A DNA stretch of 64,000 nt from a virus, in IMG/VR virus record IMGVR_UViG_3300042400_001600, positions 1 to 64,000 of that record; one strand, given 5' to 3'. Position 1 is the first letter of the stretch, and every line of letters starts with the position of its first letter. Below the pieces are notes generated by a model. That model searched no databases. It worked only from the letters and a program-made list of their open reading frames with translations, and had not been told where the DNA came from. This document shows positions 5,615-20,758 of the stretch, piece after piece. The translations under genes were made by a program, and so were the position numbers.

Positions 5615-6277
5615 TCAGGATGGGCATTCCGCCGTCTCGTCAATTTTTTGCGCCTGCCTCATAAAGAAAGCCAACCGCGTTAAGAGTTTGCTTTCCAGTT
5701 GCCCGGCTCGTGCGCCCGTTACTCCGTATAGCATTCCGATCGCGACCAACGTGTGTGGATCTTTTCCGTCCATCCCGAATCGCAACGCGAGGAACTTTTG
5801 CTGCGACTCCGTGAGTTTCATTACACAATTCATTACAGTCGCTACGTCATCTGTTTTGAGCAACGCCTGCAACCCATCCACATTCTGCTCGTCGATCAAT
5901 TGATCCTCCAGGGGTATTCCTCCGTGTTCCGAATTGGACGTGTGCAAGCAAAGGTCGGGTCTTCCGCCTCCGCGCTTTTGCCGCCGACGGGCCGTATAGA
6001 CTTTACACATCTCACGGCGAATAGCTAGGCAGGCCATAGCGCTGAATTTGAATCCACGGCTGACATCAAACCGCCGGCTAACGTGGAACAATCCAAGCAT
6101 ACCCGCGGAGAACAAATCGTCATATTCCGAATCTCCACGCAACGCCCCCCATTCTTTCAGCATGTGGGAAACCAGGCGTATGTTCTCGGTTACTAGCTTC
6201 TCCACCAGCTCCGGGGGATTGTCAGGATGGTGTGGTTGGTCTTCTGGTAAATCATCAGGGACTTCAGTAGCGATCAT
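5615..6277 (-). CDS. Sigma-70-family RNA polymerase sigma factor-like protein
   Basis: 220 aa. Residues about 25-90 match sigma region 2: LVTENIRLVSHML, then YDDLFSAGMLGLFHVSRRFD and FKFSAMACLAIRREM. A short basic linker (TARRRQKRGGGRPD) follows. Residues about 165-210 look like region 4 (ESQQKFLALRFGMD ... VAIGMLYGVTGARAGQLESKLLTRL), a helix-turn-helix that would read a -35 box. Region 1 is lacking. It may direct host polymerase to phage promoters; the three 34-bp elements at 15.2-20.7 kb are candidate targets. A second sigma-like gene lies at 24664-25422. Confidence 0.82.
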   Translation of the reverse strand: MIATEVPDDLPEDQPHHPDNPPELVEKLVTENIRLVSHMLKEWGALRGDSEYDDLFSAGMLGLFHVSRRFDVSRGFKFSAMACLAIRREMCKVYTARRRQKRGGGRPDLCLHTSNSEHGGIPLEDQLIDEQNVDGLQALLKTDDVATVMNCVMKLTESQQKFLALRFGMDGKDPHTLVAIGMLYGVTGARAGQLESKLLTRLAFFMRQAQKIDETAECPS

Positions 6278-11360: not shown

Positions 11361-12443
11361 TTACGCCGCTGAGGACAGGCCGCGCAGGGTCGTATGTGTC
11401 ACGACAAGCACCTCGCGCTGCACCTCCGCTGGCAGCAGCGCCAGCAGCGCCGATGCCTCGCCGGGATTGGTAGAAGCCAGCTTCACAGCCTGCATCACCG
11501 TGTCCGCCGTTTCCTTGCCCAGCGCCGAGCGCACGGACGCCTCATTGAGCGTGCTGAAATGAATCGCTGGGATCATGACCTGATCCAGGAACACCGACTG
11601 CGACGCCACCTTCTTCAATGCTTCCACCGAAGGGCCGCTGTGGAAGATGCGCCACGGATTCACGAACACCGTGCTGTATTTGATTCCCGATGCGCGATCC
11701 AGGGTTTCAATGAGCGAGACGGCCTCCTCCACTGTGATGCCGCCTTCGGCACCGGCGGATTTGACCGTGTCCCGATAGACCTCCAGCAATTCATCGCTGA
11801 CGCCGGCGAACTTCCGATGCCCGACGAGGTCCAGCGCCTTGTCGCGATCGAACACCCGAGGTTCCGCCATTTCCCGCACGTCCGCGGGCAATTCATCGGC
11901 AGCCAGCCCGAAGCTCGGGGCGACCCGCATGATGGTCTCGCTGGCCGATTTGAACCAATCCACAGGCAGCTCACCGGTGCCGGAATTGAAGTCCTTCACC
12001 AATTGGACCGCGGAGTCCTGAATCTGCACGGCGGACGTCAGCGGGTAGAAGCCCGTCGGTTCGCTGTCTTCCGCCGCCACCTTAACCGTCAGCGCAAAGC
12101 GCGGGAGCGATTCAGGGGCGGCGGCCGATTTGACCTGCGCGCGCAGGTTGCTGAGGATATCGGCGACCTCATGACCAATGCCAAACACTGCGGAGGCGGA
12201 TTTGACGGCCTGCAGCTCGGGGGCCGTGTCCGGCACGCCCTGCGCTCCCAAATATACGGCGCTCATGTAGGCCGCCACCTTGGAATGCATGGGATGCTTC
12301 CGATGCACCGGGTCCGCAAAGGCGGAGGCGTGCAGGTTTTTCACCTCGTCGTCGGAGATGACCTCGGCCTGTTTCACCCAGTCGGGGAGTTCGATGACCG
12401 TGAGGAAAGATGGGTTTTTGTCTGAGATGATGTCGCGCAGCAT
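11361..12443 (-). CDS. Probable virion structural protein rich in KxA motifs
   Basis: 360 aa. It contains at least seven hydrophobic-K-x-A motifs (WVKQAEV, AVKSASA, QVKSAAA, TVKVAAE, WFKSASE, TVKSAGA, AVKLAST), as do the head-module proteins at 45-61 kb. The middle has FYPLTSAVQIQDSAVQLVKDF ... LPVDWFKSASETIMRVAPSFGL, a pattern (YPL, then a helix, then an A/I-rich helix) that I associate with internal or structural proteins of large phages. The shared motif suggests processing by the phage protease. The gene lies far from the rest of the head module. Confidence 0.6.
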   Translation of the reverse strand: MLRDIISDKNPSFLTVIELPDWVKQAEVISDDEVKNLHASAFADPVHRKHPMHSKVAAYMSAVYLGAQGVPDTAPELQAVKSASAVFGIGHEVADILSNLRAQVKSAAAPESLPRFALTVKVAAEDSEPTGFYPLTSAVQIQDSAVQLVKDFNSGTGELPVDWFKSASETIMRVAPSFGLAADELPADVREMAEPRVFDRDKALDLVGHRKFAGVSDELLEVYRDTVKSAGAEGGITVEEAVSLIETLDRASGIKYSTVFVNPWRIFHSGPSVEALKKVASQSVFLDQVMIPAIHFSTLNEASVRSALGKETADTVMQAVKLASTNPGEASALLALLPAEVQREVLVVTHTTLRGLSSAA

Positions 12444-12452
12444 GTGGGGAGA

Positions 12453-12872
12453 TTACCCTGTGGGTTCTGGTTTCGCAATTGCGGAATCGCCTGCGGGCTT
12501 CTCGATGATGGAAATGAACGCCTCGTCTTTCGGCAATTCCAAATCCTTCAGCGATGCCGCGGTGATGATTTCCCGAAGATCCTTGTTCGGGAAATGCGTC
12601 AGGGAGGGATGTGGGTCTCCTGTTTCAATTACGCCGAAGTCAAGAATCGCAGGATGCATGATATTTGCCGCTGCCCGGATCGCGTCCTGCAATTCAGCCA
12701 CGGCGTGTTCGCATTCGGGCGCTTCGGTGTAGTAGTCTCCATTGGCGCAGATGATGCGCTCCATCGCTTCGCGCAGTTTCCCTAATGCGGACTTCAATGC
12801 ATCCCGCTCTGCCACAATGCAGCCTGCGTGCTCGTGCGCGGTGCTTCCACAGCAGACACATTTGATCAGCAT
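12453..12872 (-). CDS. Hypothetical protein with N-terminal Cys cluster, 139 aa
   Basis: MLIKCVCCGSTAHEHAGC gives Cys at 5, 7, 8 and 18 plus His, a likely zinc site. Then a helical segment (ERDALKSALGKLREAMERII) and an acidic/hydrophobic C-terminus. It overlaps the end of the GHKL ATPase gene by 7 nt, so the two are probably co-translated. Function unknown. Confidence 0.65.
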   Translation of the reverse strand: MLIKCVCCGSTAHEHAGCIVAERDALKSALGKLREAMERIICANGDYYTEAPECEHAVAELQDAIRAAANIMHPAILDFGVIETGDPHPSLTHFPNKDLREIITAASLKDLELPKDEAFISIIEKPAGDSAIAKPEPTG

Positions 12873-14860
12873 TTACCTTTGATGGTTGTTGCTTCCTTCT
12901 TGTGAAACGTAATCGTCATCTTGTTCTCTGAGTATTTGTAATGCTTCTCTCCGACCGGACGCTGATCGCCATATTCGAAGTCCACAGTCAACCCGATGAT
13001 TCCAGATTTGCGACGGGCCTTATTGAATTCATCCGAGCTGAGCAGCGATCGAACTTGACCCTCAATGGCCTCCTGAAACGCCTTCTCCGGGGACAGCAGC
13101 ACCTGTTTCATTTTCCGGCAGGTCCAGGTGCTTTGCGCATCAGCGGTGCTGTCCTCATGATCCGAATCATCCGGTGGATCGCAGAAGGCAATCAACATCC
13201 AGTTCTCCGCCTGGCTGCGGATGTCCCGCTCCTTGGTCTGCGCATTGTTCGCCTCGGCTCCGCTATCCGCCGGGAGTAACGCCTTTGCAAATGCCCAGCT
13301 TCCGTCCTCCACATGCGAGCAGTCGGCGGTGCGGAAATACGCCACTGTCTCCAGTTGCAGATTGATGTGTGCTCGCTTCTCGCCCATCCCCTTGTCCCTC
13401 ACCGGCTTTTCGATGATGAAATCCACCAGGATCTCCGAGGCCAGCTCATCCGGGCCCTGCGGCATATGCAGGGCGTCGCTTTGGCCTTCGCTCGTGTACA
13501 CTCCATGCTTGCCCTGCTTCACCGTGAACTTCACGGAGTCCTCCTCGATGAACGGCAGGCGGTCATACCAGGAATACCCGCTGAAATTGCCGTTGGCGCG
13601 GACGAATTGCATATTCAGGCAATCATCCAATTTGGGTAGTTCAAATGCACCGTCCACATCGAAACCACCTTCAGCTTTAATCTCGGGTGTGACAGAAACC
13701 GAATTACACGCAAAGGCAATTGCCATCGTCAGATTCAGCCCGTTGTCGTCCAGATTGGGAACCAGCACCGGATGGCCATGCCTTACATCCACGCGACGAT
13801 CCATGTCGTTGTCGAACTCCGGGTATTGCAGTTCCGAATAATGGTCACGGCATTTGATGCAGACTGCTTTCAAATACGACACTGCCTCGGGCAATTCGAC
13901 GCCGATGGCCTTGAAGCGCTGATACGTCGTAAACGGCATCCGGTGTTTCCCTTCGTGCCGCTTCAGTCCGTGCTCGACCAGCAGGCGCTCGATGTGCGTC
14001 TTGAGCAATTCCCAATTGGCATCCTGTAAGATCCCGTTGCGCGCCGGCAGGACCAGCTTGATGTGCTGGGTGTTCCGGATGTCCAAGATTGCGGCATATT
14101 TGCTTTTGCCGTCATTCCCGAAATCCCCGACTTCGGGCATTTTGGGTGTGGCGAGCACGCAGCCATGGAAGTTTGCGGTGTTCGCGTCATGGTCCAGTGA
14201 ATAGCCGCTCAGCTTCTGGCGATTGTGAATCCCAATACGGATACCGTTCCATTCCACCACCGCTTCTGCGTCCGCCAGGAAATCCTCCTGCTTTACGCGC
14301 TTATCGTTGATGCTGACTTTCAGCCCGCAGTATTTGGAGCATTTCTCCACAGCGTCCATCCATCGAGTTACCGCGGTATGGTGCGCGTAGTATTCCGACT
14401 TCTCCGCATTCGTGATGAATTCCAGCCGCATGCCTTTGATGGGCGACTTGGTGGCGCAGGGGAGCGTCTCCTTCCCGTGCGTGAAGATGGCCTTGTCGAG
14501 CGTCATACGCCAGTTGTGACTGGAGACATGCACGGCCCCGCTCAGACCACAGAGCGAAAAGAAACCGGCACCGGCGGGATCCTCGTCCGTCTGAATGCCT
14601 GCATCCCAACCTGATTCGCCGAGTGTGAGCAGCACTGCCGGATCTTCGACGCCGCAGCCGTCGTCGGTGACGGTGATGCTGCATTGCTCAGGGCCGGCGG
14701 GCTCGATGGTCCAGCGCATCTCCGTGGCTCCGGCACGTCGGGCATTCTGGATGAGTTCGACGATGATGGTCTCCTTGCTGTGGTTGAAATACCGATCGAC
14801 CTTCTCGATAAATTTCTTGCTGACGGTTCCTGTGATGGGTTTGAGTTCTTGAGTTTTCAT
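12866..14860 (-). CDS. GHKL-family ATPase (Hsp90/MutL/rIIA-like fold)
   Basis: 664 aa. The Bergerat ATP-binding fold is clear: N-box ELIQNARRAGA (Glu35, Asn39), DDGCG (residues 66-70) followed by LLTLGESGW, and the Gly-rich lid DPAGAGFFSL (94-103). The rest (residues 200-664) is unlike MutL, gyrase or Hsp90 in what I can see. T4 rIIA has the same N-terminal fold and similar length (about 725 aa), so an rIIA-like role is one option; an anti-defence role or DNA repair are others. ATG in aaccaaccaacccaaATG. It lies downstream of a long non-coding region with a promoter-like element. Confidence 0.75.
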   Translation of the reverse strand: MKTQELKPITGTVSKKFIEKVDRYFNHSKETIIVELIQNARRAGATEMRWTIEPAGPEQCSITVTDDGCGVEDPAVLLTLGESGWDAGIQTDEDPAGAGFFSLCGLSGAVHVSSHNWRMTLDKAIFTHGKETLPCATKSPIKGMRLEFITNAEKSEYYAHHTAVTRWMDAVEKCSKYCGLKVSINDKRVKQEDFLADAEAVVEWNGIRIGIHNRQKLSGYSLDHDANTANFHGCVLATPKMPEVGDFGNDGKSKYAAILDIRNTQHIKLVLPARNGILQDANWELLKTHIERLLVEHGLKRHEGKHRMPFTTYQRFKAIGVELPEAVSYLKAVCIKCRDHYSELQYPEFDNDMDRRVDVRHGHPVLVPNLDDNGLNLTMAIAFACNSVSVTPEIKAEGGFDVDGAFELPKLDDCLNMQFVRANGNFSGYSWYDRLPFIEEDSVKFTVKQGKHGVYTSEGQSDALHMPQGPDELASEILVDFIIEKPVRDKGMGEKRAHINLQLETVAYFRTADCSHVEDGSWAFAKALLPADSGAEANNAQTKERDIRSQAENWMLIAFCDPPDDSDHEDSTADAQSTWTCRKMKQVLLSPEKAFQEAIEGQVRSLLSSDEFNKARRKSGIIGLTVDFEYGDQRPVGEKHYKYSENKMTITFHKKEATTIKGKC

Positions 14861-14947
14861 TTGGGTTGGTTGTTGGGTTTAATTGACTGCTGTTCCAGAT
14901 CTGATACCGAAAACAAAAGCACACCTCATTGGTGGCTTTGTTTATTT

Positions 14948-15120
14948 GAAAAGGGCCGCAATGCGCGCCTGCTCGGGAATCTCTCCTTGTGTCGAATAAT
15001 AGACAACTGAGATCCGGAGAATCACCTACCCGCCTTGAAGGAGCGGGCGAGGCAGAGCACCGATACGTCCTGCTAGACCACAGGCGCGCACTGCGGAAGG
15101 TCGAAAGTTTCCGAACTTTC
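14948..15120 (-). ncRNA. Candidate structured non-coding RNA
   Basis: The 518 bp between 14861 and 15378 hold no credible gene. On the minus strand a perfect 7-bp hairpin (GAAAGTT, loop CGGA, AACTTTC; 15103-15120) is followed by a 16-bp arm CCGCAGTGCGCGCCTG (15096-15081) that pairs with CAGGCGCGCATTGCGG (14971-14956). The only non-Watson-Crick pair is G-U on the minus strand; on the plus strand it would be an A-C mismatch. The enclosed 109 nt can form at least two more stems (CCCGC/GCGGG; GGATCTC/GAGA-T-TCC with TGTC/GACA above). CCCTTTTC follows the closing stem, as in an intrinsic terminator. The promoter-like element at 15237-15270 points into it. No known RNA family is recognised. Confidence 0.5.
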
Positions 15121-15236
15121 TGAAACCCCTGCGCGAAATATTACAGCACATGAGACGCGTCCGTTCATGTGGGTTCATCGCTAAACCAGGAGCTTCAGGA
15201 AACTCGGAAGATGTCGGGGATATGAATCACCTTCTG

Positions 15237-15270
15237 CATTTCTATATGACGCGCTGCGTGTCCTTATTTC
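15237..15270 (-). promoter_or_regulatory. 34-bp repeated promoter-like element, copy 1
   Basis: On the minus strand it reads GAAATA, then AGG and a variable part, then GCGCGTCATATAGAAATG. GAAATA and TATAGA are separated by 18 bp, like -35 and -10 boxes. 24 of 34 positions are the same in all three copies (others at 15679 and 20705). It points toward the candidate RNA and the GHKL gene. A 14-codon mini-ORF (MQKVIHIPDIFRVS) starts at its end; I do not annotate this as a gene. Confidence 0.6.
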
Positions 15271-15329
15271 GCGTATCCCAGGTGTGCGGTATCCTGGGTT
15301 ACGCATGACCTGGGATAAAACTGCCAGCG

Positions 15330-15369
15330 AAAAAGGGGCACCTGCCCCTGCGGGGGATAACGCCCCCGC
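15330..15369 (-). terminator. Rho-independent terminator after the 83-aa membrane protein gene
   Basis: Minus strand: a first stem GCGGGGG/CCCCCGC around ATAACG-type loop, then GGGGC-aggt-GCCCC directly followed by TTTTT. It begins 10 nt after the stop of the gene at 15379. The sequence after it, CGCTGGCAGTT, recurs after T-run at 19100 (CGCTGGTAGTT). Confidence 0.75.
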
Positions 15370-15378
15370 GCGAGAATT

Positions 15379-15630
15379 TTACTCCAACGTGCCCCACTTG
15401 CCGAATGGCAAGCAGACCAATGTCAGGCTCTTCCACTCCGCGGTCTTGAAGACCACGTAGTCTTTGATGGTGGGTTTGATGACCACCAGCAGCAGCCGTG
15501 CGGCTGCCTGGTCCACCACACCGGCGCCTTTGCGGATGGCGAGGTTTTCGAACGTCACCTCCGTGGGGAGGCCGGTGCGGCAAATCAGAAACGCGACCGC
15601 GAGCAGGATTATAATCAGTAATTTTTTCAT
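15379..15630 (-). CDS. Small secreted or membrane-anchored protein, 83 aa
   Basis: MKKLLIIILLAVAFLICRTG is a typical signal peptide or N-terminal anchor. The remaining 63 residues are a small globular part (TFENLAIRKGAGVVDQA ... IKDYVVFKTAEWKSLTLVCLPFGKWGTLE), reminiscent of small host-type lipoprotein or DUF4359-like proteins, but I cannot assign it. It has its own promoter-like element (15679-15712), a hairpin in the leader and its own terminator, so it forms a separate one-gene unit, like a moron. It may act in the host envelope, for example in superinfection exclusion (inference). The frame is also open from an ATG at the end of the promoter element. Confidence 0.7.
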   Translation of the reverse strand: MKKLLIIILLAVAFLICRTGLPTEVTFENLAIRKGAGVVDQAAARLLLVVIKPTIKDYVVFKTAEWKSLTLVCLPFGKWGTLE

Positions 15631-15657
15631 TTGAGTTGTTTTGGTTGAGTTTGGTGT

Positions 15658-15676
15658 GAAAGCGAGAGTCGCTTTC
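15658..15676 (-). promoter_or_regulatory. Perfect hairpin in leader of the 83-aa gene
   Basis: GAAAGCGA-gag-TCGCTTTC, an 8-bp perfect inverted repeat with a 3-nt loop, directly downstream of promoter-like copy 2. It could be an operator or stabilise the 5' end of the RNA. Confidence 0.5.
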
Positions 15677-15678
15677 GT

Positions 15679-15712
15679 CATTTGTATATGGCGCGCAAAC
15701 GCCCCGTATTTC
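15679..15712 (-). promoter_or_regulatory. 34-bp repeated promoter-like element, copy 2
   Basis: Minus strand: GAAATA, CGG and variable part, then GCGCGCCATATACAAATG; GAAATA to TATACA spacing is 18 bp as in copies 1 and 3. It lies between the minus-strand 83-aa gene and the plus-strand primase-like gene, 49 nt before the first gene's ATG. Confidence 0.6.
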
Positions 15713-15758
15713 ATGGGGATTGCCCGTAAGCAATTTGAGGCGTAGGCTGACATCGAAC

Positions 15759-20738: not shown

Positions 20739-20758
20739 ACCCCACCCACCCCCGGCTA

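Follow-up and report, generated by a model that had tools for sequence, protein, structure and literature searches.

A candidate gene for a structured non-coding RNA behind a repeated promoter motif in a phage genome

What occupies the 518-bp gap, free of genes, that separates a GHKL-type ATPase gene from a small 83-aa gene in a virus? Phage-encoded structured RNAs are, to our knowledge, few and mostly without known function, and a preliminary description of this locus had proposed a new one of about 165 nt at positions 14948-15120 of the 64,000-nucleotide stretch of DNA analysed here (the window). The gap is as described, running from the GHKL start codon to the stop codon of the 83-aa gene (14861-15378). 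Its content could be the product of an RNA gene, the leader of the gene that follows, ordinary intergenic DNA or a DNA element.

The window is a section of G000, a virus contig of 81.6 kb, which matches IMG/VR contig 3300044715_001611 (G001; 185,656 bp) at 100% identity over two pieces of 69,985 bp and 11,709 bp, and the 95-bp overlap of both pieces at the ends of G001 suggests a circular genome. Window positions equal 69986 minus the G001 position; G- and L-numbers label the virus records and loci compared in the analysis. G001 encodes part of an RNA polymerase beta subunit (Pfam RNA_pol_Rpb2_6, 6.2e-54), a DnaB-like helicase, a DNA polymerase (PHROG 17, 1.3e-33) and a terminase with distant likeness (20-24% identity) to those of Salmonella phage Arash and Vibrio phages D69, D148 and D181. 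ARAGORN found no tRNA in the whole genome.

A folded, non-coding unit upstream of the GHKL gene

The features of the locus, in window coordinates, are as follows.

12866-14860, minus strand: GHKL-type ATPase gene, 664 aa, downstream of the RNA
14908-15236, minus strand: structured non-coding RNA of 329 nt, predicted from fold and codon scores
14908-14943, minus strand: terminator-like hairpin (14943-14931 / 14925-14911), its 3' side ending in UUUUGUUUU
14956-15096, minus strand: 3' domain, a 16-bp helix around 109 nt with inner hairpins
15103-15120, minus strand: 7-bp hairpin GAAAGTT-CGGA-AACTTTC, mutually exclusive with the 22-bp helix
15109-15209, minus strand: 5' domain, closed by the 22-bp helix 15209-15187 / 15131-15109
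15143-15174, minus strand: inner hairpin of the 5' domain in the predicted fold (15174-15162 / 15157-15143)
15243-15271, minus strand: promoter motif CGAAATAA-N14-TCATATA, with a predicted start near 15236
15274-15317, no strand assigned: 10-bp inverted repeat TATCCCAGGT / ACCTGGGATA, 3 bp upstream of the RNA's promoter
15379-15630, minus strand: 83-aa gene, upstream of the RNA and in the same direction, codon score 0.46
15685-15713, minus strand: second promoter motif, ahead of the 83-aa gene

The inverted repeat on which the original proposal was built is present: 15096-15081 pairs with 14971-14956 over 16 bp, with CCCTTTTC beside it as claimed, and the sole deviation is indeed a G-U pair on the minus strand that becomes an A-C mismatch on the plus strand. 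Extended by one pair, this helix ranks second in length among the 17 uninterrupted helices of at least 14 bp that the genome (185,656 bp) contains, and first among the five whose loop is 60 nt or longer. Helices of 16 bp or more around a loop of that size numbered 0, 0 and 1 in three simulated genomes, which places this one above chance, though not overwhelmingly by itself.

The fold first drawn around this repeat was incomplete, having missed the 22-bp helix that closes the 5' domain, and the coordinates 14948-15120 are too narrow. The evidence speaks well for a minus-strand structured non-coding RNA, but for one of about 329 nt rather than 165 nt, with ends that we infer from the promoter and U-run positions (15236 and 14908), which set the fold limits. 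Promoter motif, 22-bp helix, 16-bp helix and terminator-like hairpin appear to form one larger minus-strand unit at about 15271-14908. The 329-nt RNA has a minimum free energy (MFE) of -127.0 kcal/mol against a shuffle mean of -99.4 kcal/mol (z -5.22; none of 200 shuffles as stable), and after composition correction only 10 of 3370 segments of this length in G001, both strands included, are more stable. At a scale of 160 nt, the best segment of the gap ranks 75th among 9276 if taken from the RNA strand and 58th if taken from the opposite one, so single hairpins this strong are common in the phage and it is the full 329-nt unit that is unusual. Mean pair probability reaches 0.92 for the 22-bp helix, 0.90 for the inner hairpin of the 5' domain and 0.93 for the best-supported inner hairpin of the 3' domain (15053-15042 / 15034-15024). 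The 7-bp hairpin with the CGGA loop exists as first noted, but its 5' half is recruited into the 22-bp helix in the longer fold.

The pairing does lend modest weight to the minus-strand direction. Five G-U pairs in the two long helices favour that strand, although one position favours the plus strand, and helix energies are -33.7 (minus) against -29.8 kcal/mol (plus) for the 16-bp helix and -28.2 against -21.6 kcal/mol for the 22-bp helix. Compared with shuffles, 14948-15120 alone gives z -4.08 on the plus strand and -3.53 on the minus strand, and the opposite strand of the 329-nt stretch folds at -120.9 kcal/mol, so that energy alone leaves the strand unsettled.

Codon scores in the six frames of the 329 nt lie between -0.33 and -0.49, whereas the genes average 0.24 and score no lower than -0.20; they give no sign of a hidden gene in 14908-15236. 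The terminator-like hairpin (14940-14908, -10.3 kcal/mol) is bulged, A-U rich and placed 49 nt upstream of the GHKL start; a simple terminator scan permitting no bulges did not list it (14943-14908). None of the Rfam 15 covariance models matched the window at gathering score, and the sub-threshold matches in 14700-15700 are at chance level (best E 2.1 and 2.7). ARAGORN likewise returned no tRNA in the window, in line with the earlier statement that none folds there; the resemblance to a tRNA D-arm proposed alongside it was unsupported.

Searches for homologues of the window's RNA yielded none beyond the phage itself. Viral contigs retrieved with the GHKL, terminase and 838-aa proteins of the window belonged in each case to the same phage, and a two-sequence GHKL profile found only itself among viral contigs. 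By DNA, the RNA had no match in phage records or in a plasmid collection, and 48 related virus records gave short, chance-like matches at best (E 0.005); the GHKL protein matched none of these 48, an empty answer that weighs little. Covariance models of the two RNA domains recovered only the phage itself (69 and 59 sources) and gave noise, with E from 1.2 up, in 36 loci encoding GHKL proteins.

The neighbouring GHKL protein matches Pfam HATPase_c at 6.5e-05 and 23.8 bits, slightly under the cut-off of 26.4. Relatives occur at no fewer than 36 bacterial loci, with roughly 25-35% identity among the matches listed; 23 of the 36 listed loci belong, by record title, to what we take to be sphingomonads, the order being our own assignment. 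A human faecal phage record contains one further relative. PADLOC had no match among the five proteins flanking the gap.

A promoter motif repeated in the phage and its relatives

Compared with its own genome, the gap contains a single repeated piece, 34 bp at 88%, which is the promoter-like motif TGAAATAC-N14-TCATATA. The promoter-like element that had been noticed upstream of the RNA therefore holds up, as one of seven genomic copies of a phage motif with fixed spacing; a generic sigma-70 scan did not list it. The seven spacer-14 sites in G001 with at most 2 mismatches (49247, 54273, 54715, 102329, 126193, 134451 and 139772, of which the first three correspond to window positions 20739, 15713 and 15271) all lie on the RNA's strand. 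Admitting spacers of 14-22 adds two rows on that strand, an offset of a listed site and one site at spacer 18; the opposite strand has no site, and five simulated genomes gave 1, 1, 1, 0 and 1. In the form TG[AC]AATA-N17-ATATA with up to 1 mismatch, G001 has 7 sites against 0, 1 and 0 in simulated genomes, and the RNA's own promoter differs from this form at one position. The remaining sites precede genes, some nearly at the start codon.

Related phages carry the motif to varying degrees and in lineage-specific variants. TGAAATA-N17-ATATA with at most 1 mismatch gave 18 matches, eight of them of the TGCAATA form, in 12 of 30 loci against 6.7 expected, a count in which L168 repeats G003 and L158 and L159 share one sequence. 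Over whole records, TG[AC]AATA sites numbered 7 in G003 (2-5 simulated) and 1 in G004 (0 simulated), and there was no clear excess in G009, G005, G002 or 22-kb stretches of Arash and D69. An ATAGA variant occurs at 9 sites with at most 2 mismatches in G004 (2-3 simulated; 4 sites at up to 1 mismatch), and this phage seems to use ATAGA as its promoter box.

Either the phage's multisubunit RNA polymerase or the host polymerase together with a phage factor probably recognises the promoter. Phage AR9 (PMC5312081, PMC9209446) offers a parallel in its combination of polymerase subunit genes and a repeated promoter motif; the motif of the window's phage has two boxes at fixed spacing. If correctly assigned, the motif would give a concrete promoter candidate for a little-studied group of phage RNA polymerases. 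The inverted repeat at 15274-15317 is perhaps an operator; it has a third half-site inside, and its hairpin was also found by a local covariance-model search.

Outside the window, about 190 nt behind the promoter site at 134451, G001 134675-134732 forms a 26-bp uninterrupted hairpin, the longest of the genome, in a region with the genome's most outlying folds.

An accessory insert and structured RNAs of related phages

Related loci were collected with a beta-subunit profile (186 stretches, of which 80 were kept) and a terminase profile (35 loci). In most of these, the genes corresponding to the window's 838-aa and 360-aa genes lie side by side and point away from each other; G003 has its 838-aa counterpart in opposite orientation. 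The two lie 18-196 bp apart in 17 of 20 syntenic loci (a few 838-aa starts extrapolated, some loci near-duplicates), and inserts are found in three: L155 (921 bp), G004 (1705 bp) and the window (3277 bp). Given the short spacing elsewhere, the RNA, the 83-aa gene, the GHKL gene and a 139-aa gene constitute an accessory insert.

The L155 and G004 inserts each begin with a promoter of this type, at a distance of 72 bp (L155) or about 60 bp (G004) from the 838-aa counterpart; in the window, the first promoter of the insert serves the 83-aa gene and the second the RNA. Behind its promoter L155 has a 437-nt noncoding stretch (5730-6166, minus strand; z -6.06, none of 100 shuffles as stable, 3 of 426 segments of the locus more stable), followed by a T-run and a 65-aa gene. 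It has no Rfam match, and nhmmer found only the stretch itself among the loci compared. The noncoding 559 nt of G004, also followed by a small gene, fold weakly (z -2.86; 2 of 100 shuffles as stable; 26 of 496 segments more stable). In codon score both stretches fall below the genes used, and neither is matched by the models built from the window's RNA domains. By eye, G004 11472-11577 resembled a homologue (closing helix and two hairpins), but it scored 7.3 bits, below simple hairpins there, and homology is not claimed.

A different noncoding RNA, here called the sibling RNA, stands behind the promoter in L151, L152, L154 and L160, and L153 was added by sequence likeness. A pattern scan of viral contigs found six contigs with it, one of them new (L224). 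The cores are located as follows.

L151:4234-4363, minus strand: sibling RNA core
L160:5515-5642, minus strand: sibling RNA core
L154:4914-5042, minus strand: sibling RNA core
L153:4411-4534, minus strand: sibling RNA core
L152:5565-5672, minus strand: sibling RNA core
L224:5757-5885, plus strand: sibling RNA core, from the pattern scan

On its own, the core of about 130 nt folds into an identical multi-branch junction in five sequences and a shorter form of it in L152, and shuffles as stable numbered 0 of 200 in five sequences and 2 of 200 in L154. Among the five sequences with the full junction, 10 of 44 pairs changed on both sides, a number reached by none of 500 column shuffles; L152 is outside this count, as the aligner could not place it. 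Sliding the partners gave 0-3, a control that favours the sibling structure because these very sequences were used to build it; the sample is also small, with five related sequences. The L151 and L224 forms differ from each other by compensated changes. The sibling model found L152 at 31.2 bits. A further candidate, L030 (26.7 bits, E 0.0005), was taken as chance, being apparently coding DNA with no Rfam match; E-values of the model are thus rough, and L152 is the least certain sibling.

Promoters with 0-1 mismatch precede all six cores by 53-213 nt (510 in L224, where a possible small gene lies between promoter and core), and a terminator-like end, defined by pattern, is present in five of the six loci. 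An opposite-strand gene reaches to about 10 nt or less from this terminator in L151, L160 and L224, so in these loci the sibling RNA is no leader. A small gene on the RNA's strand comes first after it in L152 and L154, and in L153 an opposite gene ends some 500 bp beyond. Rfam gave nothing at gathering score for six of the sibling-related loci plus L155 (L224 left out), and the sub-threshold matches in L151 and L224 fell mainly at the terminator.

The window's RNA shares with the sibling RNA the promoter type, a terminator-like end and the lack of a coding signal. By the tests applied it is not a member of that family: the sibling model (R2), run against 64 sources including the window, left the window unmatched, and a local unfiltered search scored 11.1 bits on the closing stem alone.

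T-arm-like hairpins (GGTTCAA..CC) were seen between promoter and core in L151, L160 and L153; ARAGORN called no tRNA there, and the Rfam tRNA model was sub-threshold in L151 (15.1 bits). L118:9355-9601, from the relative G003, contains a Group I intron (80.8 bits) beside tRNA-Lys in a phage tRNA cluster.

An RNA gene weighed against other readings

Our best explanation, to which we assign a probability of roughly 0.55, is that the stretch is an RNA gene of the phage, with its own promoter and terminator, and that its product is a structured non-coding RNA some 330 nt long. Its computed basis consists of the fold, the absent coding signal, the promoter motif and the arrangement in relatives, from which we infer that the stretch is transcribed, where transcription begins and stops, which polymerase is used and whatever function the RNA may have. 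Transcription would begin near 15236 from the phage promoter type, read by either polymerase considered above; the transcript would adopt two helical domains, and the U-rich hairpin near 14910 would halt most transcripts. The GHKL gene would then be expressed by leaky read-through or from an unrecognised promoter. The product would be the folded RNA, alone or with bound proteins, as is thought for ROOL and GOLLD. Packaging-type, decoy and sponge roles, offered as options in the preliminary description, are without specific evidence.

The main rival, a serious one though less probable, takes the stretch for a long, structured, attenuator-bearing leader at the 5' end of the GHKL gene, in which the domains would sense some signal and so determine whether transcription halts at the hairpin near 14910, ahead of the start codon at 14860. 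The hairpin with its U-rich end, which precedes the GHKL start by 49 nt, the lack of a motif promoter between the two, the small genes that follow the L155 T-run and the G004 noncoding stretch, and the mutually exclusive 22-bp helix and CGGA hairpin are all consistent with this. Yet the folds show no alternative pairing that breaks the terminator, the exclusive pairings being confined to the 5' domain, and the genes downstream in the window, L155 and G004 are by eye unrelated, leaving no conserved regulated gene. Riboswitch and T-box attenuator leaders similarly combine a folded RNA and a terminator-like hairpin ahead of a gene, but here there is no family match, no antiterminator is seen and no gene association is conserved between phages. 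An RNA gene is favoured over a GHKL leader because the relatives' RNAs behind this promoter are not leaders in at least three loci, where sibling RNAs abut a convergent gene (3 of 6), and because the terminator-like hairpin separates the RNA from the GHKL gene.

That the gap is ordinary intergenic DNA, with hairpins belonging to terminators and an operator-like repeat and no functional RNA, we consider unlikely. Hairpins are many in this phage, higher-scoring 160-nt segments occur elsewhere (the strongest at G001 134675-134732), and the window's RNA has no homologue found; against this, the 329-nt unit as a whole is unusual, follows a promoter motif and lacks a coding signal, and relatives carry, behind promoters of the same type, an RNA that shows covariation. 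A DNA element, either a miniature inverted-repeat transposon or a replication origin, is suggested by the 16-bp inverted ends flanking 109 bp and by the insertion site among relatives, but is very improbable: the element is single-copy in the phage, absent from the phage and plasmid collections and without a clean target duplication, and the cumulative GC skew is lowest at G001 31747 and highest at 172245, neither of them close to 54.9 kb, with no repeat of at least 10 bp in the region.

As a phage RNA gene, the stretch would best be read as a new one that stands broadly beside ROOL and GOLLD. According to PMC12286853, these are large phage or prophage RNAs of unknown function, with a ROOL of 659 nt and GOLLD often above 800 nt, the latter with a less conserved 5' region that sometimes contains tRNAs; ROOL, GOLLD and OLE profiles are included in Rfam. 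The window's RNA is similar in being phage-encoded, long, elaborately folded and without a protein product, and the GOLLD 5' region recalls the variable 5' part of the sibling RNA with its T-arm-like hairpins, but the window's RNA has only about 330 nt and no Rfam match, and its phage has no tRNA found.

More speculatively, and with low confidence, phages of this RNA-polymerase-encoding group may carry structured RNA genes under a common promoter type that are replaced or re-invented between lineages and perform one shared job, the components being the multi-branch-junction RNA in one branch and unrelated folds, the window's RNA among them, at the insertion site elsewhere. If so, quickly diverging RNA sequences would serve a common purpose. 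The promoter motif offers a handle to candidate RNA genes of this phage group that Rfam misses. The sibling branch, with its covariation and clear ends, makes such an RNA directly testable.

Elsewhere in G001, outside the window, 102974-107179 encodes a protein of 1401 aa, one domain of which resembles the anti-CBASS protein Acb1 (27.3 bits, cut-off 27); an alternative likeness is to 2'-5' RNA ligase (PHROG 755).
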